A DNA stretch of 64,000 nt from Raineyella fluvialis (GTDB lineage Bacteria > Actinomycetota > Actinomycetes > Propionibacteriales > Propionibacteriaceae), in the NCBI RefSeq assembly GCF_009646095.1, contig NZ_CP045725.1, positions 2,728,001-2,792,000 of the forward strand, read 5' to 3'. Below are positions 6,108 through 64,000 of this stretch, in pieces. Position 1 is the stretch's first letter; every line of letters starts with the position of its first letter. Below the pieces are notes generated by a model. That model was not told the origin of the DNA. It searched no databases and saw only the letters and a program-made list of their open reading frames with translations. The translations under genes and the position numbers were made by a program.

Positions 6108-7414
6108 ATGATCAACCGCGTGCAGAAGCCCTCGGAAGTCCCGCCCACCCTGGTGACGGTGCGCCGCGTGGCGTGGACGGTCCTGGGCGGTTCACTCGCG
6201 GTGCTGGTGTGTCTGGTCGCTCTCGTGGGTTCGTTGAGCGTCGTTCCCGCCTACCAGTCGCATGTCGGCCTCGGTGGTCAGCTGACGAGTGTCGGTGTGC
6301 TGGCGCTGCTGGCCTGGCTCGTCGCGATGGCCACCCTGTTCGCCCGCCGCGCGCACCCCTGGGTGCCGATGGTGGCCGGTGTCCTGCTCACGGTGGTGCT
6401 CCAGCTCGACAGCCTGCTGCTGCTGTTCGGGGCGGCGTCGGTGGTCGTGCATCGCGGTCGCCGTCAGGGCGCCATCGCCTCCACCGTCGCAGGGGCGCTC
6501 ACGCTGGTGGCAGGGCTGCGCGACGGGCTGCGCCCCTGGCGGGACAGCGCCTGGGCTGCCGCGTTGAGCTCGTCGTCCCCGCTGTCTGCGACGCCGGATC
6601 CGCAACTTCAACTCGGCGTGAGCCTCGGGATCGCCTTCGTCTCCGGTGTGGTGGTCCTCGGCAGCGCCTGGCTGGTCCGTTCGCGACAGGACCTGGGGGA
6701 GACAGAGGAAGCCCGGGCGCAGGCGGAGGACCGCAGCGAACGACTCGCGACGGCGACCGTGCGCCTGGAGGAACGTGAGCGTCTGGCCCGCGAGGTCCAT
6801 GACACCTTGGCGCATCGCCTGTCGCTGATCTCGCTGAACTCGGGGGCGCTCGAGACTGCCGCCCTGGACGGCTCCCCCAGGTGGCGCAAGCAGCCGAGGC
6901 CCTGCGGGAGAGTGCTCATCGCTCGTTGGAGGATCTGCGTGAACTGGTCGGCGCACTGCGACAGCCGCCGACTCCCGATCGCGCTCCGATGGCAGGCGAC
7001 CCGGACCTCGCTCCTCGGGTGGGGCTCGCCACCCTGCCCGAGCTGATCGAGTCGGCGAGGTCTTCCGGGGCTCGCATCGAGGCCACGATCATGGTCCAGG
7101 ACGCTGATCAGGCGGGGGACCTGCTGAATCGAGCCACCTATCGCATCATGCAGGAGGCCCTGACGAACGCCTTCAAGCATGCACCAGGCCAGCCCATCCG
7201 CGTCGATCTCATAGCCGGCCCCACGACGGGCATCCACGTCACGGTGACGAATGCGCTCGGCCCGGATTCCGGCCTTCCCGGGTCGGGCAACGGCCTCATC
7301 GGCATGCAGGAGCGTGCTGCCCTCCTCGGCGGGATCCTCAGCGCTGAACCGGATGACCGAGGGAACTTCGTGGTCGAGGCATCCCTGCCGTGGCAAGGTC
7401 GAACGAGCCGCTGA
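6108..7414 (+). CDS. NarL-family sensor histidine kinase, frame-broken
   Basis: Membrane sensor kinase for the regulator that follows. The N-terminal half has about five hydrophobic segments (residues 15-190), then a coiled stretch and the HisKA_3 box LAREVHDTLAHRLSL with the phospho-accepting His near residue 231. After the C run at 6874-6878 the frame shifts by one; the new frame continues without a gap into VAQAAEALRESAHRSLEDL and a HATPase domain with an N box (IMQEALTNAFKHAPG) and GNGLIGMQERA. Adding one C restores a single protein of about 435 residues. The ligand is unknown. A real loss of function cannot be excluded. Confidence 0.85.
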
Positions 7415-7460
7415 GGAGGGGCGGGCCGAGCTGCGGGCGGCCGATGTCAGAGGCTTCTCC

Positions 7461-7466
7461 TAGCCT
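7461..7466 (+). promoter_or_regulatory. -10 box before response regulator GTG
   Basis: TAGCCT ends 7 nt before the GTG at 7474. No ribosome site precedes any candidate start here, so this box is what favours 7474 over the ATG at 7444. Confidence 0.45.
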
Positions 7467-7473
7467 CATCGAT

Positions 7474-8184
7474 GTGACACAGAGTGATGCGGGGGACACC
7501 CGGCCCATCCGGGTGATGCTGGTCGACGACGACGCGATGGCGCGCAACGGCGTTCGGATGATCCTGGAGAGCGCGCGCGATATTCGGGTGGTCGCTGAGG
7601 CTTCCGACGGTGGGAAGGTGATCGACGCCGTCCATGCCCACCACCCCGATGTGGTGCTGATGGACCTGCACATGCCGACGGTGAACGGCATCGCGGTCAC
7701 GGCCCGCCTACAGCGAGAGATCAATCCGCCGAAGGTCATCGCCCTGACCTCGATCGACCTGGACAGCTACGTCTTCGACGCCCTGGAGGCAGGGGCGAGC
7801 GGGTTCCTGCTCAAGGACGTGGCGCCGGTCGATCTGCAGCAGGCGGTGCGTACGGTGCACCACGGGGATGCCGTTCTTTCCCCGCGCAGCATCGCCCACC
7901 TCATCCGGCAGTTCGTCGACGCAGGCCACCGCGAGCAGAACAGCCGCGCGCTCGGTCTGCTGGCGCTGCTGACGCCCCGGGAACTGGAGGTCGCCCACTG
8001 CGTCCACGAGGATCTGAGCAACCAGCAGATCGCCCGGAGACTCGGCTGCAGCGAGGCCACCGTGAAGACGCACCTCAGTCACATCATGGCCAAGCTCGAC
8101 GTGCCGAGCCGTGTCCAGGTCGCCCTGCTGGTTGAGCGTGCGGCCTCCTCCCGCAGCGCGATGGTCCCCGCCCCGATGGGATGA
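7474..8184 (+). CDS. NarL/LuxR-family response regulator
   Basis: DNA-binding partner of the kinase upstream. A receiver domain (about residues 10-125) has the acidic pair in VMLVDDDA, the phospho-acceptor Asp in DVVLMDLHMPTVNG, and the Thr and Lys switch residues (ALTSID, LLKD). A LuxR-type helix-turn-helix fills the C-terminus (LTPRELEVAHCV, NQQIARRLGCSEATVKTHL). From GTG 7474 the protein is 236 residues, close to the usual 210-230; ATG 7444 would add 10. Targets are unknown; the inverted repeat at 6083-6101 is a candidate. Confidence 0.9.
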   Translation: MTQSDAGDTRPIRVMLVDDDAMARNGVRMILESARDIRVVAEASDGGKVIDAVHAHHPDVVLMDLHMPTVNGIAVTARLQREINPPKVIALTSIDLDSYVFDALEAGASGFLLKDVAPVDLQQAVRTVHHGDAVLSPRSIAHLIRQFVDAGHREQNSRALGLLALLTPRELEVAHCVHEDLSNQQIARRLGCSEATVKTHLSHIMAKLDVPSRVQVALLVERAASSRSAMVPAPMG

Positions 8185-8188
8185 CCTG

Positions 8189-10139
<1,951 letters not shown>

Positions 10140-10192
10140 CGGCACCGCACCCCTGGACTCCGGGCAGTCGCCACCCCTGACCCGCCCGGAAA

Positions 10193-10234
10193 CACGAAGC
10201 CCTGCCTCCCACAAGGAGAGAGCAGGGCTTCGTG
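10193..10234. terminator. Bidirectional terminator between leuA and hmp
   Basis: CACGAAGCCCTGC (10193-10205) pairs perfectly over 13 bp with 10222-10234; a small inner CTCC/GGAG stem lies in the loop. It sits between convergent stops. Confidence 0.85.
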
Positions 10235-10255
10235 GCGTTCAGTGCCGTGTGGCGA

Positions 10256-11422: not shown

Positions 11423-11521
11423 GGGGTGTACTCCTTCGTTGGGGTTGCCGGAACAGTAATCGATTGATTCGGACTATCCGTTGAAAACGATCGTGATCCA
11501 GGTCACCGACGAGGTCATCGC

Positions 11522-11527
11522 TAGGCT
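11522..11527 (+). promoter_or_regulatory. -10 box of leaderless DinB-like gene
   Basis: TAGGCT ends 6 nt before the ATG at 11534, with no ribosome site in between. Confidence 0.55.
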
Positions 11528-11533
11528 TTGACC

Positions 11534-12040: not shown

Positions 12041-12068
12041 ACGGGCCCTGGTGCTCTGGGGCGTTCGG

Positions 12069-13001: not shown

Positions 13002-13052
13002 GGGATCAGCCTAGTGGGGCCGCGTCACCCGGTGCGGCCTCCGATCGCGCCG

Positions 13053-13058
13053 TAGAAT
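13053..13058 (+). promoter_or_regulatory. -10 box of leaderless recO
   Basis: TAGAAT ends 6 nt before the GTG at 13065; no ribosome site can fit between them. Confidence 0.65.
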
Positions 13059-13064
13059 GAAGCG

Positions 13065-21567: not shown

Positions 21568-22506
21568 CGGCACCCGTTCGCGGTGCGCAGGGACTGGAGG
21601 TTCGCCCGCATCACCCCGAGGTAGTCCGCGCCGCGAGTGGTGTCGGTGGGCTTGGCCTCGAGCGGGTCGAGGACGTCGGTCCGCAGGCCGGCGTCGCGGG
21701 CGATCGCCTGGGAGACGGCGGGCGAGACGGCCGTCTCGTAGAAGATCGTCGTGATGCCCTCCCGCTTGGCCAGGTCGGAGACCTCGGCGATCCGGGCGGC
21801 TGTCGGCTCGACGCTGGCATCCATGCCCGGATGGAGATCTGCTGGAGGGTGTAGCGGCGGGCCAGATAGCCGAACGCCTCGTGGGAGGTGACGAACCCGC
21901 GTCGCTCGCATGTGGTCAGGCCGGAGGAGTACTCCGTGTCCACCGCCTTGAGATCGGCCACGACGGCGTCGTTGTTGGCCCGGTAGGAGTCGGCGCCGGC
22001 TGGATCGAGCGCGGTCAGTTGGTCGCGCACGGCGTTCGCGACGGTGACCATGTTCGTCGGGTCGAGCCACAGATGCGGATCGGCCTTGGCGTCGTGCGGG
22101 TCGGTGGGGGTCTCGGTGTCGTGGCCCCGGCCGCCTCGGTGGTGTCGAGGTTCTGCACCAGGGTGCGGGTGTCCAGGGCCCGACCCTTCGTGCCCTGACC
22201 TACGGCGGCGTCGACCGCCGCCTGGAAGTGGGACTCGTAGATGACCAGGTCGCTGCCGGTGGTCACCTCGCCGACCTGCTGGGGAGTGAGCTCGAGGTCA
22301 TGGGCCTCCCCGCCGGGTGGCAGGAGGCCCTGCACCGTGACCCGGTCGCCGCCGATCCGCTGGGCCAGCCACTCGTACGGGTAGATCGCCGCCGCCACCC
22401 GGACCGTTCCACCAGGCTTCGAGGCCGACGGAGAGGCGGTGCAGGCGCCCAGGAGGGCGACGGCGACGAGTCCGGACGCGAGGGCGAGTGGGCCTGACAT
22501 CTTCAT
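21564..22506 (-). CDS. znuA: Zinc-binding lipoprotein ZnuA, broken in two places
   Basis: Solute-binding protein of the zinc importer. A lipoprotein signal with lipobox LLGAC follows the ATG at 22506, then the cluster A-I domain with YPYEWLAQRIGGD, the His in GGEAHDLELTP, and HLWLDPTNM. Two single-base losses break the frame: in the C run 22135-22138 and at 21826-21828 (plus-strand bases). Restoring one base at each gives a continuous protein of about 315 residues ending in SLRTANGCR. Two Zur boxes overlap its promoter. Its ATG directly follows a -10-like GACAAT by 7 nt. Confidence 0.85.
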
Positions 22507-22520
22507 GACAATCATTGTCA
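22506..22520. promoter_or_regulatory. Zur box 1
   Basis: Perfect palindrome TGACAAT-C-ATTGTCA at the znuA start codon. It covers the proposed -10 element and transcription start. Confidence 0.8.
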
Positions 22521-22542
22521 ACAAGGTGAGAATGATTGTCAA
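22514..22542 (-). promoter_or_regulatory. znuA promoter
   Basis: On the minus strand, TTGACA (22542-22537), a 17-nt spacer and GACAAT (22519-22514), then 7 nt to the ATG. Both hexamers lie inside the two Zur boxes. Confidence 0.55.
22527..22541. promoter_or_regulatory. Zur box 2
   Basis: TGAGAAT-G-ATTGTCA, the same 7-1-7 palindrome with one mismatched pair, centred 21 bp from box 1. It covers the -35 of znuA and lies 13 bp before the -10 of the divergent gene at 22567. Confidence 0.75.
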
Positions 22543-22553
22543 AACCAGACGGG

Positions 22554-22559
22554 TAGGCT
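22554..22559 (+). promoter_or_regulatory. -10 box of leaderless monooxygenase-like gene
   Basis: TAGGCT ends 7 nt before the GTG at 22567. Confidence 0.55.
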
Positions 22560-22566
22560 TCCGCAT

Positions 22567-22878
22567 GTGCTCGTCATCCATCGCTTCCACGTCCCCGAGG
22601 GGCGTACGGCGGACTTCGAGACCGCGGCGGGGGCCGCGGTCGCCCATTTCCGTACCCGGCCCGGGGTGGACGGGGTCGACCTCGTCCGCAACCTCGACGA
22701 ACCGGGGCTGTGGGCCCTCGTCACCCGCTGGGCGGATCCCGGCAGCTACCGCCGCGCGATCAGTGGTGCGGCGGCGACGTACGCGCTGATGCCGGTGATG
22801 GCGTACGCCCTGGATGAGCCGTCCGCTTACCTGCCGGCCGAGGAGTTGGGGGAGAACGTCCCCCGGGGTGCCGACTGA
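22567..22878 (+). CDS. ABM (antibiotic biosynthesis monooxygenase) domain protein
   Basis: A 103-residue dimeric ferredoxin-like fold protein of the ABM family (VIHRFHVPEGRTADFETAAG; later WALVTRWADPGSYRRAI). Relatives act as haem-degrading or quinol monooxygenases, or as structural proteins without activity. It is divergent from znuA across the Zur boxes, so zinc-linked control is possible. GTG start chosen from the -10 box 7 nt upstream. Substrate unknown. Confidence 0.75.
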   Translation: MLVIHRFHVPEGRTADFETAAGAAVAHFRTRPGVDGVDLVRNLDEPGLWALVTRWADPGSYRRAISGAAATYALMPVMAYALDEPSAYLPAEELGENVPRGAD

Positions 22879-22961: not shown

Positions 22962-24349
22962 GTGGCCCCGAGCAAGCTCGACAATGTCATTTCCCTCGCC
23001 AAGCGGCGCGGCTTCGTTTTCCCCAGCGGCGAGATCTACGGTGGTACGAGGTCCGCGTGGGACTACGGGCCCTACGGCGTGGAGCTGAAGGAGAACATCA
23101 AGCGCCAGTGGTGGAAGTGGATGGTCACCGGGCGTGAGGACATCGTCGGGTTGGACTCCTCGATCATCCTGCCGCGTGACGTCTGGGTCGCCTCCGGCCA
23201 TGTGGGTGTCTTCACCGACCCGCTCACCGAGTGTCTCTCCTGCCACAAGCGGATGCGCGCCGACCACCTGCAGGAGGAGCACGCCGCCAAGCACGGCATC
23301 GCCGACCCCGACCAGGTGCCGCTGGCCGAGGTGAACTGCCCGAACTGTGGGGTCAAGGGCCGCTGGACCGAGCCGCGCGACTTCAACATGATGCTGAAGA
23401 CGTACCTCGGCCCGGTAGAGGACGAGTCCGGCCTGCACTACCTGCGCCCGGAGACCGCCCAGGGCATCTTCGTGAACTTCAAGAACGTGATGACCGCGGC
23501 GCGCAAGAAGCCGCCGTTCGGGATCGGCCAGGTCGGCAAGTCCTTCCGCAACGAGATCACCCCGGGGAACTTCATCTTCCGCACCCGCGAGTTCGAGCAG
23601 ATGGAGATGGAGTTCTTCGTCGAGCCCGGCAGTGACGAGGAATGGCACCAGTACTGGATCGACAACCGCCACCGGTGGTACGTCGAGCTGGGGATCGACC
23701 CGGCCAACCTGCGTTTCTACGAGCACCCCAAGGAGAAGCTCTCGCACTACTCCAAGCGGACCGTCGACATCGAGTACCGCTTCGGTTTCCAGGGCTCCGA
23801 CTGGGGCGAACTCGAGGGCATCGCGAACCGCACCGACTTCGACCTGGGCACCCACTCGAAGCACTCGGGCACCGTCCTGGAGTACTTCGACCAGGCCAAG
23901 GGCGAGCACTACACGCCGTACGTGATCGAGCCGGCCGCTGGCCTGACCCGCTCGCTGATGGCCTTCCTCACCGATGCGTACGTCGAGGACGAGGCCCCAA
24001 TGCCAAGGGGGGCGTCGACAAGCGGACGGTGCTGAAGCTCGACCCGCGCCTGTCACCGGTCAAGGTCGCCGTGCTGCCGCTGTCCCGCAACGAGAACCTG
24101 ACGCCGAAGGCCAAGGAACTCGCCGCCGAGCTGCGCAAGTACTGGAACGTGGACTTCGACGACGCCCAGGCCATCGGCAAGCGCTACCGGCGCCAGGACG
24201 AGATCGGCACGCCCTACTGCGTGACCGTCGACTTCGACACCCTCGAGGACCAGGCCGTGACCGTCCGGGAGCGCGACACCATGACCCAGCAGCGCATCGC
24301 GATCTCGCAGGTTGCCTCCTATCTGGGTGGCAAGCTCGTAGGCTGCTGA
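22962..24349 (+). CDS. glyS: Glycyl-tRNA synthetase (dimeric), frame-broken
   Basis: Class II aminoacyl-tRNA synthetase charging tRNA-Gly; essential. Motifs visible: [13 protein letters not shown] near the N-terminus, a zinc ribbon (CLSCHKR, CPNCG), motif 2 [21 protein letters not shown] and, after the break, the anticodon-binding domain ([20 protein letters not shown]). The frame is lost at the C run 23995-23998; one extra C gives [20 protein letters not shown] without a gap, a protein of about 462 residues, the normal length. The GTG at 22962 follows ACGGAG; a TAGGCT lies about 60 nt upstream. The break is almost certainly an artefact. Confidence 0.92.
24339..24344 (+). promoter_or_regulatory. 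-10 box inside the glyS end
   Basis: TAGGCT ends 6 nt before the ATG at 24351, just before the glyS stop. It suggests independent, leaderless transcription of the small gene downstream. Confidence 0.5.
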
Positions 24350-25853: not shown

Positions 25854-25859
25854 TAGAAT
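25854..25859 (+). promoter_or_regulatory. -10 box of leaderless dus
   Basis: TAGAAT ends 6 nt before the GTG at 25866. Confidence 0.65.
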
Positions 25860-25865
25860 CTGTCG

Positions 25866-27037
25866 GTGCCCCCGACCGCTCCGCCCAGCCTGACCGCCCC
25901 CCTGCGGCTGTCCGCGCCGTCCCGACCGGACGCTCTGGTCGTGGACGCCCCGGTGGTGCTCGCGCCGATGGCGGGGGTGACCAACGCCGCATTCCGTGAG
26001 CTCTGCGCCGAGCAGGGGCGGGACTGTACGTCTGCGAGATGATCACCTCCCGCGGCCTGGTCGAGCGGGACCGCAAGTCCCTGGAGATGCTGACCTTCTC
26101 ACCCGCGGAGACCGTACGTTCCGTGCAGCTGTACGGCGTCGATCCCGCGACGATGGCCACCGCGACCGAGATCCTCTGCGGCGAGTTCGGGGTGGACCAC
26201 GTCGACCTCAACTTCGGCTGCCCGGTGCCGAAGGTCACCCGCAAGGGTGGCGGCGGCGTGCTGCCCTGGAAGCGTGACCTGCTCGGGGAGATCCTCCGGG
26301 CGACGGTGCGGGCCGCCGACCGGTACGGCGTCCCGGTGACCATGAAGACCCGGATCGGCATCGACGACGACCACCGCTACTTCCTCGACGCCGGTCGCAT
26401 CGCCGAGGATGCCGGCATCGCCGCGATCTGCCTGCACGGCCGTACGGTCGCCCAGGCCTACTCCTCGGACGCCGACCGCGACGCGATGGCCGACCTGGTG
26501 GCGCACGTCTCCGTCCCGGTGCTCGGCAACGGTGACATCTGGGAGGCGGCCGACGCCCTCGAGATGGTCGAGCAGACCGGCGTCGCCGGTGTCGAGGTCG
26601 GGCGCGGCTGTCTGGGGCGTCCCTGGCTCTTCCGCGACCTGGCCGATGCCTTCGCCGGCCGGGTGACGCGTACGCTGCCCACCCTGGGGGAGGTCGCCGC
26701 CATGTTCCGTCGTCACGGCGAGCTCCTTGCCGGCCTGATGGGGGAGCGTCGCGGCCTGACCGACCTGCGCAAACACGTCGCCTGGTACTTCAAGGGCTTC
26801 CCGGTGGGCGGTGATGTCCGCCGTGGACTGGCGATGGTCACCTCGTTCGCCGAACTCGACGACCTGCTCGGCCGGCTCGACCCGAGCGTCGGGTTCCCCG
26901 ACACCGCCGTCGGCGCACCGCGCGGCCGCCAGGGCTCCCCGCGGGACAAGGTCGCCATGCCGGAAGGGTGGCTGGCCGACACCTGTGGACTCGGCCAGGA
27001 CCTGTCCGCGGCCGAACTGGGCGTTTCCGGGGGCTGA
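25866..27037 (+). CDS. dus: tRNA-dihydrouridine synthase, frame-broken
   Basis: FMN enzyme that reduces uridine in tRNA D-loops. The N-terminal part (VVLAPMAGVTNAAFRELCAE) lies in the frame of GTG 25866; after the G run 26015-26018 it continues one frame over as GLYVCEMITSRGLVE. One extra G joins them. The rest is typical: NFGCPVPKVTRKGGG with the catalytic Cys, KTRIGIDD, LHGRT and GNGDIW. The repaired length is about 390 residues. A -10 box 6 nt upstream fixes the start. Confidence 0.9.
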
Positions 27038-27083
27038 CATCTCGGGGAGGGGCAGCGTCGGAGGGTGCTGGCAGGATGGGGGC

Positions 27084-28248
27084 ATGGACGTCGAGGACGT
27101 GCCCGTGGACCCTTCCGCACCGCTGCCGCGCGCTCGGCAGTGGGCCAGCACCATGGCCGGCCACAGCCGTGCCGGGCGTGACGAGGGGACGCGCGTGGTC
27201 CGCGCCCATGCCGATTCCTCAGCCCCCATCAGGGGTGGCGAGGTCATCGACCGTGAGGCGCGTGAGGCCTGGGAGCGGGTCACGCTACGTCCCGGGGCGG
27301 CGCTGTCCCACGGTGCCGGGGACCGTCCCCGCGAGGAGGAACCGGACGCCGAGCGGACCTGCTTCGAACGCGACCGGGACCGCATCGTCCATGCCACCGC
27401 CTTCCGCCGACTGGCCGGCAAGACCCAGGTCGTCGTCCATCCGACCGACCACCAGCGCACCCGGTTGACCCATGCCCTCGAGGTCGCCCAGGTCGCGTCG
27501 TCGATCGCCCGCGGAGTGGGTGCGAACGTCGCCCTGACCGAGGCCATCGCACTGGGCCATGACTGTGGCCACGGGCCGGGCGGGCATGCCTCCGAGGACG
27601 CGTTCGACCCGTACCTTCCGGAGGGTTACGACCACGGACCGTGGGGGCTGATGTGGCCCTCGCCGATCTGAACCTCTGCGCGGAGACGTCCGACGGCATC
27701 CGCAACCACTCCTGGTCGCGACCCGCCCCCGCACGATCGAGGGCGAGATCGTCTCCTGGGCCGACCGGATCGCCTACTGTGCCCATGATCTGGAGGACGC
27801 CGCCCGCGCCGGCATCGTGTCACCGGCCGACCTTCCGGCGCAGCTGGCGGCCGTCTGCGGCCGCGATCGCCGGGCCCAGATCCGTACCTTCGTCCGTGCG
27901 GTCGTCCGGACCGTCGCCGAGTGCGGCGAGGTGGCGATGGGGGCGGACGAGGCGGCGGCCCTGGCCGGCCTGCGCTCCTTCAATTACGAGCGGATCTACA
28001 CCCGCCCCGAGTCGGTGGCCCAGTCCCGTGCCGTCGTCGACGTCCTGCGGGCGCTGGTCGAGCACTACGCGCACCGCCCCGAGCGGCTGCCCGGCGCACC
28101 GGATGCACCCGCCGACTCCCCCGAGGTCGTCCGCGCCGCCATCACCTGGATCGGCGGGATGACCGATCGGTACGCCTTCGACATCGCCACCCGTGAGCTG
28201 CGCTGGGACCCCGGCAGATTGCCGAAAGCGATCCGGGAACTTGCCTAG
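27084..28248 (+). CDS. dgt: dGTPase-like HD phosphohydrolase, broken twice
   Basis: Deoxyguanosinetriphosphate triphosphohydrolase family (dNTP to deoxynucleoside plus triphosphate). An HD domain is clear: FRRLAGKTQV, RTRLTHALEVAQ, LGHDCGHGPGGHASE. Two single-base losses interrupt it: the G run 27643-27647 (then ADVALADLNLCAETSDGIRNHSW one frame over) and the C run 27726-27730 (then TIEGEIVSWADRIAYCAHDL in the third frame). Restoring both gives one protein of about 388 residues. The ATG at 27084 is preceded 6 nt upstream by a weak -10-like CAGGAT. Confidence 0.88.
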
Positions 28249-44671: not shown

Positions 44672-44745
44672 GTGCCAGTAGCTCAGCCGGTCAGAGCAGC
44701 GGACTCATAATCCGTCGGTCGTGGGTTCAAGCCCCACCTGGCGCA
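44672..44745 (+). tRNA. tRNA with CAT anticodon (Met, possibly Ile2)
   Basis: Acceptor stem GTGCCAG/CTGGCGC (one T-G pair), D arm AGCTCAGCCGGTCAGAGC, anticodon loop CTCATAA, T arm GGGTTCAAGCCCC, discriminator A, no encoded CCA. The acceptor stem shows it is not the initiator. An elongator Met is most likely; an Ile2 tRNA modified at C34 cannot be excluded. TAGAAT at the otsB end is a possible -10. Confidence 0.88.
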
Positions 44746-44838
44746 CTCATCGTCTGCGTCGCCCGCCAAACGATCGCCTGCCGGTCCTGAGGATCGGCCC
44801 CGGCGTACGTGTGATCGGTTGATGTCTGTGGCCTGCCC

Positions 44839-44844
44839 TAGCGT
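44839..44844 (+). promoter_or_regulatory. -10 box of leaderless DUF222 gene
   Basis: TAGCGT ends 7 nt before the ATG at 44852. Confidence 0.5.
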
Positions 44845-44851
44845 TGGTTTC

Positions 44852-46452
44852 ATGCAAGGAGAACTGTTCGACGGGCCCGATCCGGGCCCGGAGCGTACGG
44901 GCCGGGAGTTGGATACCGGCCCGGTCGACGCGGCCGATCCGACGATGCTGGACGTGGTCACCCCGCTGGCGTTGAGCCCGCAACGGCTGCTGCCCGCCAC
45001 CATCGGGGAGGCGATGGAGGAGATAGACGCCCTACGCACCCTGCAGGCCACGGTGGAGGCCCGCCAGTTCGCGATCACCGCCCACCTCGCCGCCCTCACC
45101 CCCACCCCCGCGCCCGAGCAGGCCCTGCTGCCCGGCGGGGAAGCAGTGGTCGACCTCGGCGGGGACGGCTGCCCCCTGGTCGCGGAGTTCGCCGTCCTGG
45201 AGATCGCCGCCCTGCTCCACACCACCCACCAGGCCACCCGCGGCCAGATCGCCGACGCCCTCTCCGTGCGCTGGCGCCACCCCCGCATGTGGCAAGCCGT
45301 GATGGGCGCCCACCTACCCGTATGGCAGGCCCGCAAGATCGCCCAAGCCGTCCGCTGGGCCGGCCTCGACCGGGCCCAGGCCCTCCGCGTCGACAAAGCC
45401 ATCGCCCCCGCCCTGGGCGCCCTGTCCTGGACCCGCCTGGAGCAGCTCGTCGAGGGCGAGATCGTCGCCGCCGACCCCGCCCGTGCCGCCCAGGCCGAGG
45501 AACGCGCCCGCACCGGCCGCTACGCCCACGTCCACCGCGACGAAACCGGCACCGCCGGCGTCCGCACCGTCCTCGCCCGGATCGCGACCCCCGACGCGAC
45601 CCAACTCGACGCGACCCTCACCCGCCTCGCCACCACCATCGCCACCACCGACGAGGGGCACGGGGAGAGCCTGGACGAGCGCCGCGCCCGCGCCCTGGGC
45701 ATCCTCGCCACCCCCGAACGCGCCGCCGCCCTCCTCGCCGGCAACACCACCACCGCCGACCGACTCAAAGCCCCCGTCCGTCTCTACGTCCACGTCAACG
45801 CCGACCGCCTCGGCCCCGACGGCGTCGCCCGCCTCGAAGGCGAAGGCGCCGTCCCCGTCGCGAGCCTGCGGGCGTTGCTCGCGGACTCCACCGTGCGGGT
45901 CACCGGCGTGATCGACCACCGCGCCTCCGAGCCCGTCGACGCCTACGAGATCCCCGAACGCATGCGCGAACAAGTCATCCTCGCCAACCCCTACGAAATC
46001 TTCCCCTGGGGATCACGCCGGGCCCGCCACACCGACCTCGACCACACCACCCCCACAGCCAAGGCGGAGAAACCAGCCCCGCCAACCTCGGCCCGCTGGG
46101 CCGGACCGCGCACCGGGCGAAAACCCACGCCGGCTGGCGCTGCCACCAAACCCGCCCCGGCCACTGGCTCTGGCGCACCCCCTACGGCCGCACCTACCAC
46201 GTCGACAACTGGGGCACCCACACCCCCGACAACCCCACCACCGACCAGCACTCCACCACCGAACTCGACGCCCTCCTCCGCCTTTCGTCGGTGCGCGGCC
46301 AAAGTGGCGTCAGCCTCCCAGCTTCGCCCCCACGATCGCCCCGCCGCCGGCGGCCCAGGCCGGGGGCACGTAGGCGCAGCTCGGGTCGGAGGCGAGCGGG
46401 TCGCCCAGCATTGCGTAGGCGCGGGCCCGGGAACCGCCGCAGATCCAGTTGA
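44852..46452 (+). CDS. DUF222/HNH endonuclease-like protein, frame-broken
   Basis: Member of the DUF222-HNH (13E12-like) family that is multicopy in many actinobacteria; role unproven, nuclease by motif. DUF222 spans about residues 30-340; an HNH-type end starts at HTDLDHTTP. The frame breaks at the C run 46050-46054; one extra C continues it as SQGGETSPANLGPLGRTAHR and HAGWRCHQTRPGHWLWRTPYG. The true C-terminus is unclear: this frame runs to 46452, overlapping the convergent radical SAM gene by 143 bp, so the real end may lie near 46310. Strong Ala/Arg/Thr bias from extreme third-position GC. Confidence 0.75.
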
Positions 46453-48034: not shown

Positions 48035-48038
48035 GGGG

Positions 48039-50837: not shown

Positions 50838-51846
50838 CGATGCCGCCTCCTCCCTGGTCCGCCCCCCGGACCACCCGACGCTGCCGCTCGATCGGCTCGC
50901 GCCGGAGGCGGCTCTGCGCCGGCTCGAACTCACCGTCGTACGGCGCCTCGAGGGGTACCTCCAGGGCGACCACCTCGGCGTGCTGCCCGGACCGGGCAGC
51001 GACCCCAACGACGCGCGGCCCTACCGTCCGGGCGAGGACGACGTCCGCAAGATCGACTGGCCCGTGACGGCCCGCACCCAGGTCACCCAAGTCCGTGACA
51101 CCATCGCCGATCGCGAGCTCGAGGTGTGGGCGCTGCTCGACATGACCCCATCGATGAACTGGGGCACCGCCGGCATCACCAAACGCGACCTCGGCATCGC
51201 CGCCCTCGCCACCTTCGGGTTCCTCTCGCAGCGGATGGGCGACCGGTTCGGCGGCATGGTGATGCGTCCCGAGGGTGTTCGCCTCGTCCCGGCCCGATCC
51301 GGCCGGACGGCCCTGTACGGGCTGTTGCGCTCGCTCCTCGAGGAACCCATCGTCCCCGACGCCACCGACCCGGGGCTGCCCCTCGCGGACGCCATCGATG
51401 ACCTCGGCCGGGCCCAGCGGCGGCGTGGGCTGCGGATCATCGTCTCGGACTTCCTCACCCCAGGTGACACTGAGGTGGACCCCGACGTACCCCCGCCGTG
51501 GGAGCGCGCGTTGCGACGCCTCTCGGTGCGCAACCAGGTGATCGCCGTCGAGGTGATCGACCGCCGGGAGGTGGAGTTCCCCGACCTCGGCGACATCCTC
51601 GTCCGCTCGCCCGAGACCTCGTTCCAGCGCTACGTCAACACGGGTGACGCCCGGTTGCGACGGGCCATGGATGCCGCCGCAGCACGGCAGCGGGAACGCA
51701 CCCGCCTCGCCCTGCGCCGAGCAGGCGTCGGTCACCTGCTGCTGCGTACGGACGGTGACTGGGTCTCCGAGATCGCGAGGTTCGTCCTCGGGTACCGGCG
51801 CACGGCCGGCTTCCTGCACCGGCCACCGCGCGGGGTGGCACGATGA
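50830..51846 (+). CDS. DUF58 domain protein
   Basis: Partner of MoxR, 338 residues. DUF58 holds the typical VLPGPGSDPNDARPYRPGED and VRKIDWPVTAR (about 55-85) and a VWA-like fold with LLDMTPSMNWG in place of a strict DxSxS metal site. No transmembrane helix is obvious. It is followed by the two VWA genes after 31 bp. Confidence 0.88.
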   Translation: MADDAASSLVRPPDHPTLPLDRLAPEAALRRLELTVVRRLEGYLQGDHLGVLPGPGSDPNDARPYRPGEDDVRKIDWPVTARTQVTQVRDTIADRELEVWALLDMTPSMNWGTAGITKRDLGIAALATFGFLSQRMGDRFGGMVMRPEGVRLVPARSGRTALYGLLRSLLEEPIVPDATDPGLPLADAIDDLGRAQRRRGLRIIVSDFLTPGDTEVDPDVPPPWERALRRLSVRNQVIAVEVIDRREVEFPDLGDILVRSPETSFQRYVNTGDARLRRAMDAAAARQRERTRLALRRAGVGHLLLRTDGDWVSEIARFVLGYRRTAGFLHRPPRGVAR

Positions 51847-51877
51847 TTGCCGGGCGCCTGATGTGCGGGGGCGTCTG

Positions 51878-52860
51878 ATGAAGGGACTGGCCGAGTTCTG
51901 GCGCGAGCTCGCCTTCGACCAGCCCTGGCGGCTGCTCTTCCTGCTGCTCGTGCCGGCGATCGTCGGCCTCTACGTCTGGGCCTCCCACCGGCCGGGCCGG
52001 CGTGGCGTACGTCTCACCACGACCGCCCTGCTTGATCTGGTCGGCGGCCGCCGCTCGCAGTGGCGGCGCCACCTGGCGGTCGCCCTGTCACTGCTGGCAC
52101 TCACCGCGGCCATCGCCGGCTGGGCCCAGCCCACCACGCTCGCCAACGTGCCCCGGGAGCGGGCCACCGTCGTCCTGGTGATGGACGTGTCACTGTCCAT
52201 GGAGGCCAAGGACGTGACACCGACCCGGCTGGCCGCCGCCGTCAGCGCCGCCACCACCTTCGTCGGGGACATCCCACCGGCCTACAACGTCGCACTCGTC
52301 ACGCTGTCGGGCAATCCGTCGGTCGTCGTGCCGCCCACGCTCGACCACGCGGCCATCACCCGGGCCCTCGCCGGGCTGAAGCCCCAGGAGTCCACCGCCA
52401 TCGGCGATGCGATCCTGGCCGGATTGCGCGCGCTGGAACAGGCCCGCGGGACCCGGCCCATCCCGGTCAGCTCGCGCCCGGGGCGATCGTGCTGCTCTCG
52501 GACGGCGACAACACCGCGGGGACCAGCGCGGTCCAGGGTGCCCAGAAGGCGGCCGAGGCCAAGGTGCCGGTGCACACCATCGCCTTCGGCACCGAGAACG
52601 GCTACGTGGACGTCGACGGCAAGCGGGAGTCGGTGCCGCCCGACCCGGCGGTCCTGGCGGAGGTCTCCCGGATCACCGGGGGCCAGACCTTCAGTGCGGA
52701 CTCCACCCGGGGCCTCGACCGGGTGTACCGCAACATCCGTTCGGACGTGGGGATGGAGAAGAAGTCCACCGACGTCAGCTCGACGTTCGCCGGCTACGCC
52801 ATGATCGCCGCCGTGCTCGCCACCCTGGCGGCCATCACCCTGGGGGCCCGACGCCGATGA
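51878..52860 (+). CDS. VWA-domain membrane protein (BatA-like), frame-broken
   Basis: Membrane-anchored von Willebrand A protein. An N-terminal hydrophobic segment (LLFLLLVPAIVGLYVW) and a second (about 68-85) precede the MIDAS motif DVSLSM and VTLSGNPSVVVPPT. The frame breaks in the G run 52480-52483; one extra G restores AIVLLSDGDNTAGTSAVQGA and the C-terminal helix (AMIAAVLATLAAITL). Repaired length about 328 residues. Its stop overlaps the next VWA gene (ATGA). Confidence 0.87.
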
Positions 52861-53836: not shown

Positions 53837-54591
53837 ATGGCAGAGGGTCCCACGACAGACGGTCCGGCGCCGGACGTACGCGGCAATCTCGTGGCGGTCC
53901 GGGCGCGGATCGACGCCGCCTGCCGTGCCGCGGGGAGGGATCCGGGCGAGGTCCGCCTGCTGCCGGTGAGCAAGACCCGCGGACTGGAGCTGATCCGCGA
54001 GGCGTACGACGCCGGTTACCGCCGGATGGGGGAGAACCGTGTCCAGGAGGCCCTCGGCAAGTGGGAGGGCAGCAAGGACTGGCCCGGAGTCGAGTGGGCG
54101 GTCATCGGCCACCTCCAGACGAACAAGGCGCGCGACGTCGCCCGTTTCGCGGCGGAGTTCCAGGCACTCGACTCGTTGCGGCTCGCCCGCGAGCTCGACC
54201 GCCGGCTGCAGGCCGAGGGCCGCGGGCTGGACGTCCTGATCGAGGTCAACTCCTCGGGTGAGCCGCAGAAGGCGGGAGTGGCCCCGAGGAGGCTCCGGCC
54301 CTGGCGCAGGAGCTGGCGGCGTTCGACTCCCTGCGCGTCAGGGGCCTGATGACGGTGGCGGTGCGCTCCGAGGACCTCGCCCAGGTGGAGGCCTGCTTCC
54401 GGGTGATGCGGCGGCTGCAGGAGCGCCTGCGACAGACCGACCGCGCAGCGGGCAGCTACGACGAGCTGTCGATGGGGATGTCGGGCGACTTCGAGGCGGC
54501 CATCAGGCATGGTTCCACCTGCGTACGCCTCGGCCGGGCGATCTTCGGGCCCAGGCCGGTCCACCCGGAACCGGGCCGACTGGCGCACTGA
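53837..54591 (+). CDS. yggS: PLP homeostasis protein YggS/PROSC, frame-broken
   Basis: Pyridoxal-phosphate-binding protein with an alanine-racemase-like barrel. Visible: LLPVSKTR with the PLP Lys (about residue 41), GENRVQEALGKWE, WAVIGHLQTNKAR and, after the break, MGMSGDFEAAIRHGSTCVRLGRAIFG split over the phosphate-binding loop. The frame is lost at the C run 54282-54285; one C restores EEAPALAQELAAFDSLRVRGL. Repaired length about 251 residues. In actinobacteria it more often lies by ftsZ/sepF; here it is apart. Confidence 0.88.
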
Positions 54592-56888: not shown

Positions 56889-57893
56889 TCAGGGGAGGAC
56901 GATGACCTGGCCCGAGTAGACCAGTCCGGCGCCGAAACCGATGATCAGGCACGTCTCACCCGAGTGCACCTGACCGTCCTCGTACAGGGCCTCGATCGCC
57001 ATCGGGATCGAGGCGGCCGACGAGTTGCCGGTGTGCGCGATGTTGTGCGACACCAGCACGGACTCCGGCAGCTTCAGCGTGCGGACCATCGCCTGGGTGA
57101 TCCGGTCGTTGGCCTGGTGCGGCACGAAGACGTCGAGGTCCTCGGGGGCCAGCCCGGCGGCGGCCAGCGCCTGCTCGGCGTAGTGGCAGACGGTGAACGC
57201 GGCCCACTTGAAGACCGGGTTGCCGTTCATCACCAGGACGGGATGCTTGCCCTCGGCGACGGCCTGGGGCCAGTGCGGCACCTGCTGGATGAGGTCGCCC
57301 TGCTCGGCGTCGGAACCCCAGACGACCGGGCCGATGCCCGGCTCGTCGGAGGGGCCGACGACGGCCGCGCCGGCGCCGTCACCGAAGATGAAGGCGGTGG
57401 AGCGATCGTTCTGGTCGGTCAGGTCGGAGAGTCGCTCGACGCCGATCGCCAGCACGTACTTCGCCGCGCCGGAACGCACCAACGCATCGGCCTGGGCCAG
57501 GGCGTACGAGTAGCCGGCGCAGGCGGCGGAGATGTCGTACGCCGCGGCCTTGCTGCCCAGGTCGCCGGCGATGACACAGGCGAGGCTGGGGGTCTGGGTG
57601 AACCAGCCGACGGTGGAGACGATGATCGCGCCGAGCTCCTCCACCGGGACGCCGGAGCGCTCGATGGCCTTCTTGGCGGCCTCGGCCGCCATGTACTCGA
57701 CGGTCTCCTCACCGGTCGCCCAGTGCCGCTCGGTGATGCCGGACCGGGTGCGGATCCACTCGTCGGAGGACTCGATCCAGGTGCAGACCTCCTCGTTCGT
57801 GACGATCCGTGAGGGGGAGTAGCCGGACATCCCGTAGATCCGGGCGTACGGCGACCCTACGGACGCCTTGATCGGGTGGCGGGACTGGCTCAT
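56889..57893 (-). CDS. fabH: Beta-ketoacyl-ACP synthase III
   Basis: Initiates chains by condensing acyl-CoA with malonyl-ACP. 334 residues with the triad Cys (SAACAGYSYAL), His (VPHQAND) and Asn (AHTGNSSAAS), plus the C-terminal GFGAGLVYSGQVIVLP. ATG 57893 overlaps the fabD stop (ATGA). The frame is open upstream within fabD and is not coding. Confidence 0.95.
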   Translation of the reverse strand: MSQSRHPIKASVGSPYARIYGMSGYSPSRIVTNEEVCTWIESSDEWIRTRSGITERHWATGEETVEYMAAEAAKKAIERSGVPVEELGAIIVSTVGWFTQTPSLACVIAGDLGSKAAAYDISAACAGYSYALAQADALVRSGAAKYVLAIGVERLSDLTDQNDRSTAFIFGDGAGAAVVGPSDEPGIGPVVWGSDAEQGDLIQQVPHWPQAVAEGKHPVLVMNGNPVFKWAAFTVCHYAEQALAAAGLAPEDLDVFVPHQANDRITQAMVRTLKLPESVLVSHNIAHTGNSSAASIPMAIEALYEDGQVHSGETCLIIGFGAGLVYSGQVIVLP

Positions 57894-58854
57894 CGGGTGA
57901 CCTCCGTGGCGTCGGCGTTCTCGGTGGACTGGGTGGCGTGCCGGGCGACGAACTCGCGGGCTGCGGGCAGTTCGTCGGGCGTGTTCAGGGCGAAGACCTC
58001 GACACCCTTGAGGTTGCGCTTGGCGATCCCGGTCAGGGTGCCGGCCGGCGGCAGCTCGAGAAGGCCGGTCACACCCAGAGTGCGCAGGGACTCCATGCAC
58101 AGGTCCCAGCGGACGGGTGCCTCGACCTGACCGACCAGGCGCTGGAGCATGTCGGTGCCGGACTCGACGACCTGACCGTCACGGTTCTGCAGCAGCTTCG
58201 TGCGGGGTGCGTGCGTCGCGATCGCCCGGGACAGGCGCTCGAGGCGCGCGGTCGCCGGGGCCATGTGCACGGTGTGGAAGGCGCCGGCCACGCTCAGCGG
58301 GATGAACCGGGTGCGCTGCGGGAGGTTCTCCTTGAGCGCCTCGAGTTCCTCCATCGTGCCGGCGGCGACGATCTGGCCGGAACCGTTGTGGTTGGCCGGG
58401 GTGAGTCCCGCGGCCGCGATGGCGGCCAGGACCTCCTCCTCCTTGCCGCCGATGACGGCTGCCATCGAGGTCGGGCGTACGGCCGAGGCCTCTGCCATCC
58501 CCTTGCCGCGCTCGCGGACGAAGACCATCGCCTGCTCAGCCGACAGCACCCCGACGAACGCGGCGGCCGTGATTTCGCCGACGGAATGGCCGGCGACGAC
58601 GCCGACCCCACGCAGGTCCTCGGGGAGGAGAACAGGGACGGGGCGGATGCCAGGCCGGCGGCGACCAACAGCGGCTGGGCGATCGCGGTGTCGCGAATGG
58701 TGTCCTCGTCGGCCTTCGTCCCGTAGTACTCGAGATCCAGGCCGCCGACCGCAGACAGCCAGTTCAGGCGATCGGCGAAAGCGGGGTCCGCCAGCCACGG
58801 TTCGAGGAATCCTGGTTTCTGAGCGCCTTGTCCCGGCGCGACGACTGCGAGCAC
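57890..58854 (-). CDS. fabD: Malonyl-CoA:ACP transacylase, frame-broken
   Basis: Loads malonyl groups onto ACP; essential. The N-terminal LAVVAPGQGAQKPGFLEPWL lies in one frame from a GTG at 58854 (GGGAG 10 nt upstream). At the G run 58640-58643 (plus strand) the frame changes and continues as PVPVLLPEDLRGVGVVAGHSV, with the catalytic Ser in GHSVGE and the His in VAGAFHTVHM. One base restores a protein of about 321 residues, the family length. Overlaps fabH. Confidence 0.93.
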
Positions 58855-58922
58855 GCTTCCACTCTCCCGCCTCGGGGCCACGGATGCGGCAGGCGCGGCA
58901 GACGAAATCGGACGTCCCAAGT

Positions 58923-58939
58923 TTGTCGGAATCCCACAA
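58923..58939. promoter_or_regulatory. Candidate FasR operator before fabD
   Basis: On the minus strand TTGTGGGA-T-TCCGACAA, an 8-1-8 palindrome with one mismatched pair, centred about 77 bp before the fabD GTG. A second palindrome, CCCGCCATGGCGGG, lies at 58943-58956 and could be a weak terminator. This gap is the only one in the aceE-fabF run longer than 80 bp. Confidence 0.4.
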
Positions 58940-58967
58940 GGGCCCGCCATGGCGGGGGCTGCAGGGG

Positions 58968-60160
58968 TCAACCGACGTGGTCCCCGAACAGGCGACCCAG
59001 GGTGAGGGCCAGCCTCAGCGTGTACGAGTCGCGCGGGTCGGTGGGTGAATATCCGGTCACCTCGTGGATCCGCTTGAGCCGGTAGCGGACCGTGTTGGCA
59101 TGGACGAAGAGCGCTCGTGCCGAGGCCTCGATCGACAGGCCCTCGTCCAGGAAGCAGGTGAGGGTCTCCAACAGGCCGCCGCCCGACTCCACCAGCGGCC
59201 CGTACACGTCCCGGGCCAGGGCCCGGCGGGCGTGCCCGTCTCCGGACAGCGCCCGCTCGGGCAGCAGGTCGTCGGCGTGGACCGGACGGGGGGCGGCCGG
59301 CCAGCCAGGGGCGGCGCGCAGTCCGGACAGTGCGGCCCGGGCGCTCCCACTGGCCAGGGACAGCTGGTCCACCCGGGGCCCGACCACCACCGGCCCGTCG
59401 CCGAAGCGGTCGGCCAAGGGGGCGACGATCGGTAGCGGGTCGGCGTCAGGGGCCAGGCGATCCCCACCCAGCACCACGACCAGACGGTCGCTGTGCACCG
59501 CGGCCAGGCAGTCCAGCCCGCGGGTGCGCGCCATCCTGCGGGTGTCCTCGATCTTGCCCTCCGCCTCGGCGCCCGGGGCGGAGCCGACCATCACCAGCGC
59601 TCCCGCGGTGGAGCGCCACCCGAGGGTGGCCACCCGTGACATCACGGAGTCGTCGACCTCCCCGCGCATGACCGCATCGACGACGGTCGCCTCCTGGCGG
59701 ATATCCCAGGCGCCCCGCACCTCCGCCGCCGCCGCGTAGACCTCGGCGGCGGCGAAAGCGACGTCCCGGCTGTACTCGTTGAGCGCGGCATGCAGGTAGG
59801 GGCGATCGGCTCGCGGCATCAGTTCGTCGATCTGGGCGTCGACCGTGTCGATGACGCTGCGGGTCAGGTCGACCGTCTGCTTCAGGGTCACGTGGCGGGA
59901 CAGCTCCCGCGGTGCCCGGTCGAAGATCTGGACCCGGGCCGAGCCCCCTCGCCGAACCAGTTGATGAAGCCGTCGACGCCCGCACGGGCGACGAGGGTCA
60001 CCGAGGCCCGGTGCTCCGGACTGAGTCGTCCGAACCACTCGTAGCGCGCATCCACCTCCGCGATGGCGGCGGTCGTCATCTTGGCCGCCACCTGCCGCAA
60101 ACGGCGGGCGATCGAGGCGCGGGAACGGGTCGAGGGGAGCTGGATCCAGGTCAGGGCCAT
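58968..60160 (-). CDS. fasR: FasR-like PucR/CdaR-type regulator, frame-broken
   Basis: Transcription activator-like protein of about 397 residues after repair. N-terminal helical region (MALTWIQLPSTRSRASIARR start), a GGDEF-like middle, and a C-terminal PucR helix-turn-helix (LSIEASARALFVHANTVRYRL). The frame breaks at the C run 59944-59948 (plus strand); one base gives WFGEGGSARVQIFDRAPREL. Between aceE and fabD its position matches Rv2242 (FasR) of mycobacteria, which activates fatty-acid synthase genes, so the same role is inferred. Confidence 0.85.
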
Positions 60161-60162
60161 GG

Positions 60163-62921
60163 TCAGGCGCCGGCGCCTTCCTGGGCGACGTGCGCCACCG
60201 CGGTCGGGTCGTCGATGCCGTACGTCGTGAACGCCTCGGCGGCGGCACCGGCGCGGTAGGAGCCCTGTGCCTCCAGTGCCTCCAGGGCCGCGACCACCAT
60301 CGACTGGGCGTCGATCTGGAAGTAGCGGCGCGCGGCGGCACGGGTGTCGGCGAAGCCGAAACCGTCCGCGCCGAGCGAGGTGAACGGCCCCGGGACGTAC
60401 GGCCGGATCTGCTCCTGGACGGCCCGCATGTAGTCGCTGACCGCGACCACCGGGCCGGTGGTCGTCGACAGCTTCTGCGTGACGTACGGGACCCGTCGTT
60501 CGGACGCCGGGTGGCCGAGGTTCCACTTGGCGCACTCGATGGCGTCGCGGTTCAGTTCGTTCCACGAGGTCACCGACCAGACGTCCGCGTCGACGTGCCA
60601 CTCCTCGGCGAGGATCCGCTGGGCTTCGAGGGCCTGGGGGACCGACACGCCGGAGGCGAGCAGGCGTACCCGGGCATAACCGTGGTCCTCGGCGGGCCGG
60701 AACAGGTGTAGGCCCTTGAGCACCCCTCGACGTCGAGGTTCTCCTCGGGGCCGGGCTGCTGCACCGGCTCGTTGTAGACCGTCAGGTAGTAGATGACGTT
60801 CTCGCCGTCCGGATGCTTCGGGTCGTCGTGCCCGTACATCCGGCGCAGCCCGTCCTGGACGATGAGGGCCAACTCGAAGGCGAACGCGGGGTCGTAGTGG
60901 ACGACCGCCGGGTTCGTCGACGCGATCAGCGGGGAGTGCCCGTCGGCGTGCTGCAGGCCCTCGCCCGTCAGGGTCGTGCGGCCGGCGGTGGCGCCGAGCA
61001 GGAAGCCGCGCGCCATCTGGTCACTGGCCGCCCAGATGAAGTCGCCCACGCGCTGGAAGCCGAACATCGAGTAGAAGATGAACACCGGGATCATCGGCTC
61101 GCCGTGCGTGGCGTACGCGCTGCCCGCCGCGGTGAACGAGCCCAGACCGCCGGCCTCGGAGATGCCCTCGTGCAGCAACTGACCCGCGGGCGAGGACTTC
61201 CAGGCCAGCAGCAGCTTGCGGTCGACCGACTCGTAGGTCTGGCCCTTCGGGTCGTACAGCTTGGCCGTCGGGAACATCGAGTCCATGCCGAAGGTCCGGA
61301 ACTCGTCCGGGGCGATCGGGACGATCCGCTTGCCGATCTCCGCATCGCGCATCAGGTCACGCAGCAGCCGGACGAACGCCTGCGTGGTGGCGACCTTGGC
61401 CTTCGGGTTGCCCGGCGCCATCAGCTCCTTGTAGACGCTGTCGCCCGGCAGTTTGAGGGCGCGCGGCTTCACCCGACGCTCGGGAACGGCGCCACCGAGC
61501 GCGGCGCGGCGCTCGCGCATGTACTGCATCGCCGGGGAGTCATCCGCCGGCTTGAAGTACGGCGGGTGGTAGGCGTCCTCGAGGGCAGAGTCCGGGATCG
61601 GCAGGTGCAGCCGGTCGCGGAACGCCTTGAGGTCGGCCGAGGTGAGCTTCTTCATCTGGTGCGTGGCGTTCTTCGCCTCGAGGGCGTCGATCGTCCAGCC
61701 CTTCACCGTCTGGGCCAGGATCACGGTCGGCTGGCCGACGTGCTCCATGGCCGCCTTGTACGCCGCGTAGACCTTGCGGTAGTCGTGGCCACCGCGGCCG
61801 AGGCGCTGCAGCTGCCGGTCGGAGTAGCCCTCGACCATCCGCTTCAGGGTGGGGGTGTCGAAGAACTTCTCCCGGATGTAGGAGCCGTCCGCGATCGAGT
61901 AGGTCTGGAACTGGCCGTCCGGAGTGCTGTTCATCTTGTGCAGCAGCGAGCCGTCGTGGTCCGCCGCCAGCAGCGGGTCCCAGTCGCGCGACCAGAGGAC
62001 CTTGATGACGTTCCAGCCTGCCCCGCGGAAGAAGGACTCCAGGTCCTGGATGACCTTGCCGTTGCCGTCGACCGGCCCGTCGAGCTGCTGCAGGTTGCAG
62101 TTGATGACGAAGGTGAGGTTGTCGAGCTCCTCGCGGGCCGCGCGGCCGATGGCGCCGAGGGACTCGGGCTCGCCCATCTCACCGTCGCCGAGGAAGGCCC
62201 AGACGTGCTGCTGCGAGGTGTCCTTGATGCCGCGGTTGTGCAGGTAGCGGTTGAACCGGGCCTGGTAGATCGCGTTCAGCGGGCCGATGCCCATCGACAC
62301 CGTGGGGAACTCCCAGAACTCCGGCATCAGGCGCGGGTGCGGGTAGGACGACAGCCCGTTGTGCGGCCCGCGCGAGACCTCCTGGCGGAACCCGTCCAGG
62401 TCGTACTCGGTCAGTCGGCCCTCGAGGAAGGCGCGGGAGTACATACCGGGCGAGGCGTGGCCCTGGAAGTAGATCTGGTCGCCACCTCCGGGGTGGTCCT
62501 TGCCGCGGAAGAAGTGGTTGAAGCCCACCTCGTAGAGGCTGGCGGCGCTCTGGTAGGTGGCGATGTGGCCGCCGACCTCGAGGCCCTTGCGGTTCGCCTT
62601 GGACACCATCACGGCGGCGTTCCAGCGCAGGGCCCGACGGATCTCGCGCTCGGTCTCCTCATCTCCCGGGAACAGCGGCTCGTCGGCCGTGCTGATCGTG
62701 TTGATGTAGTCCGTGGACCGGAGCGAGGGCAGTCCCACCTGGCGCTGCCGCGCGCGGGCGAGGAGCTCAAGCATGATGTAGCGAGCTCGGTGGGGACCCT
62801 TCTGCTCGAGGAGCCCGTCGAAGGAGGAGATCCATTCCTCTGTTTCTTCGGGGTCCACATCGGGGAGCTGGCTGGGGAGGCCCTTGGCGCTGGGCGCCGG
62901 GCGGTCACCGGGATTGGCCAT
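60163..62921 (-). CDS. aceE: Pyruvate dehydrogenase E1, homodimeric, frame-broken
   Basis: Thiamine diphosphate E1 that decarboxylates pyruvate for acetyl-CoA. Hallmarks: [20 protein letters not shown] split around the substrate channel, the TPP motif [12 protein letters not shown] with [16 protein letters not shown], and [14 protein letters not shown]. Near the end the frame breaks at the C run 60723-60726 (plus strand); one base joins LDVEG to [19 protein letters not shown]. Repaired length about 919 residues, as expected. ATG 62921 follows AGGACG. The gene ends 2 bp before fasR. Confidence 0.94.
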
Positions 62922-63164
62922 GCATCGTCCTATCCGTTCATGCCGACCTTGGTCGTCGTCCTGAAATGTCGATCCTTGTGCGATCAGCCACAGCGTACGT
63001 TCGGCGTGCCTCCCCAGCCTAGTGGTCCACTTCGGGCCGTGGGACGGCCTTGGGGACGGGGAAGTCGCGGAGGTGTGGGCGTGACGTCGGGCCTGGGGTC
63101 TGGCAAGGTGGTGTCCACACTTCGTGTGTGCCACTTTGACGTACCAATGAAAGGGGAAACCTCC

Positions 63165-63569
63165 GTGGCCAGCGACGCCGCAGGCCGTCTGGGCCTTGCC
63201 GCCGGCCAGCTCGTTCAGGAGCTGGGCTGGGATGAGGACGTGGACGACACGTTACGCATCGCGATCGAGGACGCCGTTGACGGCGAACTCGTCGAGGACG
63301 CCGTCGAGGCGGTCGATGTCGTGTTGTTGTGGTGGCGGGACAGTGACGGCGACATCGCCGACGGTCTCGTCGACGCGTTGACGGACCTCAAGAACGATGG
63401 GGTGATCTGGCTGCTGACCCCGAAGGTCGGTCGGGACGGGCACGTCGATCCCGCCGACATCGCCGAGGCGGCGCTGACGTCAGGGCTCGCCCAGACGTCC
63501 ACCACCACCAGCATCTCGGGCGACTGGAGTGCCAGCAAGCTCGTGCGTCCGCGGGGCAGCCGGCGCTGA
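63165..63569 (+). CDS. DUF3052 family protein
   Basis: Acidic actinobacterial protein of 134 residues ([61 protein letters not shown]). Function unknown; the mycobacterial homologue lies beside aceE and ahpE in the same order. I chose GTG 63165 with AAAGGGGAA 6 nt upstream; an ATG 6 codons earlier is possible. The long open frame over aceE upstream is not coding. The 240 bp before it holds the divergent aceE promoter region; TACCAAT near 63140 is a possible -10. Confidence 0.85.
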
Positions 63570-64000
63570 TGCTGCCGCCGTCCCCGTGGTCGGGCGGGTG
63601 GTCCCGGAGTTCCACGGCTTTGACCAGCGCGGGGATGATTTCGATCTGAGTGCGTGGCGCGGTCGCCCGGTGCTGCTGTTCTTCTTCGCCTTCGCCTTCA
63701 GCTCCGTCTGTCGTGACGAGCTGGAGAACCTCCGCGACATGGCGTATCTGTTCGACGCGGCCGGCTGCCGGATCGTGGCCGTGTCGACGGACACCACGTT
63801 CGCCCTGCGCGAGCTCGACCGGCAGTTGGGGCTGGGGTTCAGCCTGGTCTCCGACCACTGGCCGCACGGGTCCATCGGGCGTGCCTACGGTGCGTTCGAC
63901 GACAGGTTGGGCTGTGACCGTCGGCAGTCGTTCCTGCTCGGGCCGGACGGCACACTGGTCTGGAACAAGGAGGGGGACTTGCCGTCGATACGCGACATCG
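63569..64000 (+). CDS. AhpE-like peroxiredoxin, cut by window end
   Basis: Thiol peroxidase of the AhpE/BCP type; 3' end missing. The frame reads VVGRVVPEFHGFDQRGDDFD, FSSVCRDELENLRD with the peroxidatic Cys, and FLLGPDGTLVWNKEGD. The Pro of the usual PxxxT/SxxC motif is Ala here (AFAFSSVC). The best ATG (63569, TGATG overlap with DUF3052) is one frame off; one extra C in 63582-63585 would give MLPPSPVVGRVVPEF. Otherwise the start is GTG 63586. The order DUF3052-peroxiredoxin matches mycobacterial ahpE. Confidence 0.85.

Follow-up and report, generated by a model that had tools for sequence, protein, structure and literature searches.

A stretch of 64,000 nucleotides of the Raineyella fluvialis contig (positions 2,728,001-2,792,000; hereafter the window) was originally predicted to contain fourteen frame breaks, each shifting the frame by -1 and nearly all of them at short runs of G or C, with glyS, fabD and aceE among the affected genes. 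The question which this locus raises is whether these genes are broken in the organism or merely in its assembly. From the comparative analysis presented here we consider it highly probable (at roughly 96%) that the breaks are assembly errors caused by the under-counting of homopolymers in an insufficiently polished long-read consensus, and that the genes would be intact in the organism.

Genomes and alignments

The genome that carries the window is complete and consists of a single contig of 3,649,865 bases with approximately 69% G+C. We take the strain to be R. fluvialis CBA3103, presumably sequenced on an early long-read machine; judged by titles, none of the Raineyella papers listed reports the R. 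fluvialis genome. The comparison set comprised three Raineyella genomes, namely G1 (R. antarctica LZ-22, 40 contigs) and G2 and G3 (one contig each), and the synteny of the window is kept in all three at a DNA identity of roughly 67-88%. The contamination listed for R. fluvialis is 2.32%, as compared to a rounded 1% for each of G1, G2 and G3, and double-counting of split marker genes could be the source of the former value.

At the protein level, the proteins of G1, G2 and G3 were aligned to the window with an aligner that permits frame changes at a cost, and at the DNA level a four-way alignment of R. fluvialis with G1, G2 and G3 was used, which took in 149,858 of 244,000 bases. Controls were drawn from a region of 204 kb, consisting of the window and its flanks, in which genes were picked by their excess of third-position change. 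A break was regarded as interior if its distance to the alignment end exceeded 120 bases. The run analysis was based on 31 of the 44 one-base DNA losses, being those that match a protein break, with the other 13 excluded, and break rates were calculated relative to the number of coding runs that are intact at the presumed original length, one base above the length seen at the break. The initial 40 kb of R. fluvialis, for which neither G2 nor G3 offers alignable sequence in its own initial 40 kb, were left out, as were the loci L111 and L112. In the genome sampling, 5 of 12 places without usable synteny to the presumed G2 stretch were dropped.

Fourteen frame breaks in the window

Frameshift-aware protein alignment and DNA alignment recovered all fourteen predicted breaks, each with a net shift of -1. 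Thirteen are supported by all three relatives, and the remaining one (at 46049) is supported by G3, the sole relative with aligned DNA at that position. The affected genes, with the relatives supporting each break, are as follows.

6108-7411, plus strand: sensor histidine kinase; -1 near 6874 in a C run; three of three relatives
21614-22647, minus strand: znuA, zinc ABC transporter binding protein; -1 near 22127-22129 and 21828-21830; three of three relatives
22962-24346, plus strand: glyS, glycyl-tRNA synthetase; -1 near 23996 in a C run; three of three relatives
25857-27034, plus strand: dus, tRNA dihydrouridine synthase; -1 near 26018 in a G run; three of three relatives
27078-28245, plus strand: dgt, dGTPase-like with HD domain; -1 near 27647 and 27730; three of three relatives for each
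44822-46449, plus strand: 'HNH' gene; -1 near 46049; G3 only
51644-52857, plus strand: VWA-domain gene; -1 near 52443 (originally placed at 52480); three of three relatives
53873-54555, plus strand: yggS-like gene, alanine-racemase N-terminal fold; -1 near 54280; three of three relatives
57893-58939, minus strand: fabD, malonyl transferase; -1 at ~58610-58630; three of three relatives
58977-60601, minus strand: fasR-like regulator, PucR-type helix-turn-helix; -1 near 59944 in a C run; three of three relatives
60166-62921, minus strand: aceE, pyruvate dehydrogenase E1; -1 near ~60723 in a C run; three of three relatives
63569-64000, plus strand: peroxiredoxin; -1 at ~63580, near the start; three of three relatives by DNA alignment

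Most of the positions given beforehand agree with the alignments, the exceptions being the VWA-domain gene (approximately 38 bases off), the second break in znuA (approximately 8) and fabD (approximately 10-30).

By Pfam profiles, segments of a single protein fall into separate frames in the case of the kinase (HisKA_3 in one frame and HATPase_c in the other, the latter at 25.6 bits and so slightly below the cut-off of 26.4), znuA (the ZnuA profile matches two frames, and the gene runs through three frames in turn against all three relatives), glyS, dgt (HD and HD_assoc in separate frames) and aceE (TIGR00759 in the first frame and Transketolase_C_1 in the second). For a further five genes a part was matched in a single frame only: in the downstream frame for dus (Dus profile, from position 30 onward), fabD (Acyl_transf_1) and the fasR-like gene (HTH_30), and in the first frame for the VWA-domain gene (VWA_2 and BatA) and the yggS-like gene (Ala_racemase_N). 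The fasR break was placed as +2 against G1, which is an equal change of frame. In the peroxiredoxin gene the break is located approximately five codons past the relatives' start codon (ATG); beyond the break, a single frame stays open across the entire AhpC-TSA domain. The name HNH did not hold up, as neither of the two frames tried gave a Pfam match; 401 codons of this gene align with G3 on the 5' side of the break and 132 after it. The interval 44747-46346, which adjoins a tRNA-Met (44672-44746), carries this gene in R. fluvialis and G3, and has no aligned DNA in G1 and G2, where other sequence of a different length is present; its appearance is that of a variable site of insertion adjoining the tRNA.

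No additional well-supported coding break was found in the window beyond the fourteen. A call at 47.5 kb was rejected, the reference ORF there merely extending upstream of the start, as was a +1 in fabD at ~58885, a position that precedes the start codon. At 48037, R. fluvialis has one base fewer than all three relatives, in noncoding DNA directly upstream of the start codon of an intact gene that, from its appearance, is probably thioesterase-like. Calls made against a single reference at 5956, 6043, 25804, 28852, 48095 and 49840 were dismissed on position alone.

Direction of the shifts

The single direction of the shifts was borne out when the relatives were passed through the identical procedure. 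Across the 204-kb region, R. fluvialis has 36 interior -1 breaks with G2 as reference (136 kb), 27 with G3 (127 kb) and 28 with G1 (149 kb), whereas the controls yielded five in G3 and three in G1 by G2, one in G2 by G3, and one in G2 and three in G3 by G1. These -1 breaks make up 36 of 44, 27 of 29 and 28 of 40 interior events in R. fluvialis by G2, G3 and G1, respectively. The remaining shifts (8, 2 and 12 by the same references, at least two of these calls being start-site artefacts) are not in excess of those in the relatives (4, 9, 7, 6 and 5), and neither are internal stops (4, 7 and 11 as compared to 3, 4, 10, 9 and 14). One-base changes specific to a single genome in the 149,858 aligned bases show the same asymmetry, with 44 losses and 12 gains in R. 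fluvialis, 7 and 7 in G2, 4 and 7 in G3, and 24 and 19 in G1, where the raised counts coincide with visibly poorer alignments.

Run context and break rate

The predicted G/C-run context was likewise recovered: 26 of the 31 breaks analysed touch a G/C run of at least three bases as compared to 17.2% of random coding junctions, and 21 touch a run of at least four as compared to 5.0%. At the remaining 5 of 31 a G/C run of at least three is absent, which weighs against run shortening. The break rate rises steeply with the presumed length of the G/C run, from 2 of 4,272 runs of three (0.05%) through 5 of 1,014 runs of four (0.5%) and 13 of 296 runs of five (4.4%) to 8 of 41 runs of six (20%), that is, approximately tenfold per added base until five and approximately fourfold beyond. 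A/T runs longer than three number 17 in the 149,858 bases. Runs of five and six are not visibly depleted in R. fluvialis (311 and 38, as compared to 248-318 and 33-54 in the relatives), a count that taken by itself weighs against run shortening but would be expected if some 5-20% of them were affected.

A different artefact, in which the consensus drops a single base standing between two runs (at a modified base, for example) and leaves the run itself at full length, would account for the fact that the missing column holds a base other than the run base in most relatives at 26 of the 31 breaks, the run base being the majority in the relatives at only five. Intact runs, however, differ from the relatives with similar frequency (for five-base runs 79% of 248, with 12 of 13 at breaks; for those of at least six bases 88% of 33, with 5 of 8 at breaks), shortening would produce just such a steep climb with run length, and no shared motif was apparent by eye in the break contexts examined. 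We consider such a loss of lone bases unlikely; as far as the alignments allow this to be judged, run shortening appears to explain the data, and lone-base loss is unneeded.

Copy number and codon constraint

True decay of the genes, through slippage in G/C runs as might be expected of a mismatch-repair mutator, has in its favour the established knowledge that homopolymer slippage likewise yields one-base changes which become commoner with run length. It would have to be reconciled with the lack of any excess of +1 shifts and stop codons over the relatives, and with the fact that glyS, fabD and aceE are apparently single-copy. Intact second copies of these three genes, which the original prediction had named as grounds for abandoning it, were not found in the complete 3.65-Mb genome: for glyS the next profile match in the genome scores 18.6 bits, with no other full match, and for aceE the next match scores 24 bits. 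No second stand-alone copy of fabD was found; its next profile match (123.9 bits) belongs to a 1,264-codon frame for which both G2 and G3 have a counterpart, and probably represents a domain of a polyketide synthase. Genes were thus struck regardless of need, as homopolymer error would have it.

Codon differences relative to G2 at positions one, two and three amount to 0.117, 0.085 and 0.370 past the breaks of 20 broken genes, and to 0.123, 0.090 and 0.345 in 72 event-free genes. The ratio of positions one and two to position three is 0.55 after the break, 0.77 before it and 0.62 in the 72 event-free genes. Relaxed constraint past the breaks was not observed in the 20 broken genes, a comparison which a very recent loss would escape; the codon constraint therefore indicates that the reading frames are maintained in nature. 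With constraint past the breaks equal to that of intact genes, we regard true decay as very improbable.

We give next to no credence to recoding, by which the assembly would be correct and an efficient slip of the ribosome or RNA polymerase at short G/C runs would restore the frame and yield whole, functional proteins from hundreds of shifted genes, a notion that suits the uniform sign of the shifts and the G/C runs at most breaks but not the many unrelated genes affected, the open frame of the same places in the relatives, or the 283 intact runs of length five, by which equal runs would have to be both slippery and non-slippery.

Extent across the genome

The breaks are not peculiar to the window: its flanks carry them at similar rates, and nine further places sampled in the genome show the same association with G/C runs. 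The number of -1 breaks per kb in the window, upstream and downstream is 0.34, 0.25 and 0.21 by G2, 0.14, 0.11 and 0.26 by G1, and 0.27, 0.19 and 0.18 by G3. At the nine other places (190 kb), 20 -1 breaks and 13 other interior shifts were observed, a bias in direction which by itself is not significant (p 0.30). Of these 20 breaks, 16 have a run of at least four no more than 8 bases away, as compared to 11.5% of random positions. The rate in the 204-kb region, which includes the window that was selected for its breaks, exceeds that at the other places (36 in 136 kb as compared to 20 in 190 kb, p 0.001). By G2, the aligned coding sequence totals 326 kb and contains 56 interior -1 breaks; after subtraction of a background of approximately 1-5 per 113-135 kb, a rough extrapolation gives several hundred false breaks genome-wide.

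In the vicinity of dnaA (1.33 Mb) the -1 rate is 0.07-0.13 per kb within 1 Mb, as compared to 0-0.34 farther away, on few events. A lower break rate close to dnaA is no more than suggestive, and could be explained by read coverage that declines from the origin towards the terminus.

Discussion

Based on the findings of this study, the breaks in the window are best read as assembly errors because they share one shift direction, depend on run length, strike essential single-copy genes, leave codons conserved and recur elsewhere in the genome. The homopolymer-shortening chemistry that had been proposed for them thus finds support in the direction of the shifts, the rate by run length, the single-copy genes, the codon constraint and the genome-wide run context. 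A long-read consensus that received too little polishing with accurate reads would leave short G/C homopolymers one base short, each run base so lost within a gene would shift the frame by -1, and the genes would be whole in the living cell. The sequencing technology, and the longer runs expected in the reads, are the parts of this reading that we infer.

As biology the breaks have no significance, and as a sequencing artefact they are useful as a warning, in that it would be unsafe to draw conclusions about gene loss, essentiality or absent pathways from the R. fluvialis assembly. Plotting the break rate by run length provides a means of recognising error-laden assemblies without recourse to reads. 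Beyond what the original prediction contained, this study adds a comparison with controls, a curve of the break rate, a search for further copies of glyS, fabD and aceE, the conservation of codons past the breaks and the result that the window does not stand out from its surroundings.

In long-read assemblies of Pseudomonas syringae, a report by Kastor (PMC12007338) describes indels that are mostly false deletions and fragment genes, the deletions occurring mostly after homopolymers with a peak at runs of four to five. The R. fluvialis breaks resemble the profile given there, in that deletions dominate, are located at homopolymers and make genes look broken; they differ in that G/C runs lead in R. 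fluvialis, whose genome of approximately 69% G+C has few A/T runs longer than three and where the artefact is read from the assembly, whereas A/T runs lead in the P. syringae account (PMC12007338). With pseudogenes that arise by homopolymer slippage, the frame breaks of R. fluvialis share their location at homopolymers. Unlike such pseudogenes, they strike essential single-copy genes, in one direction, and with neither relaxed constraint nor added stops.
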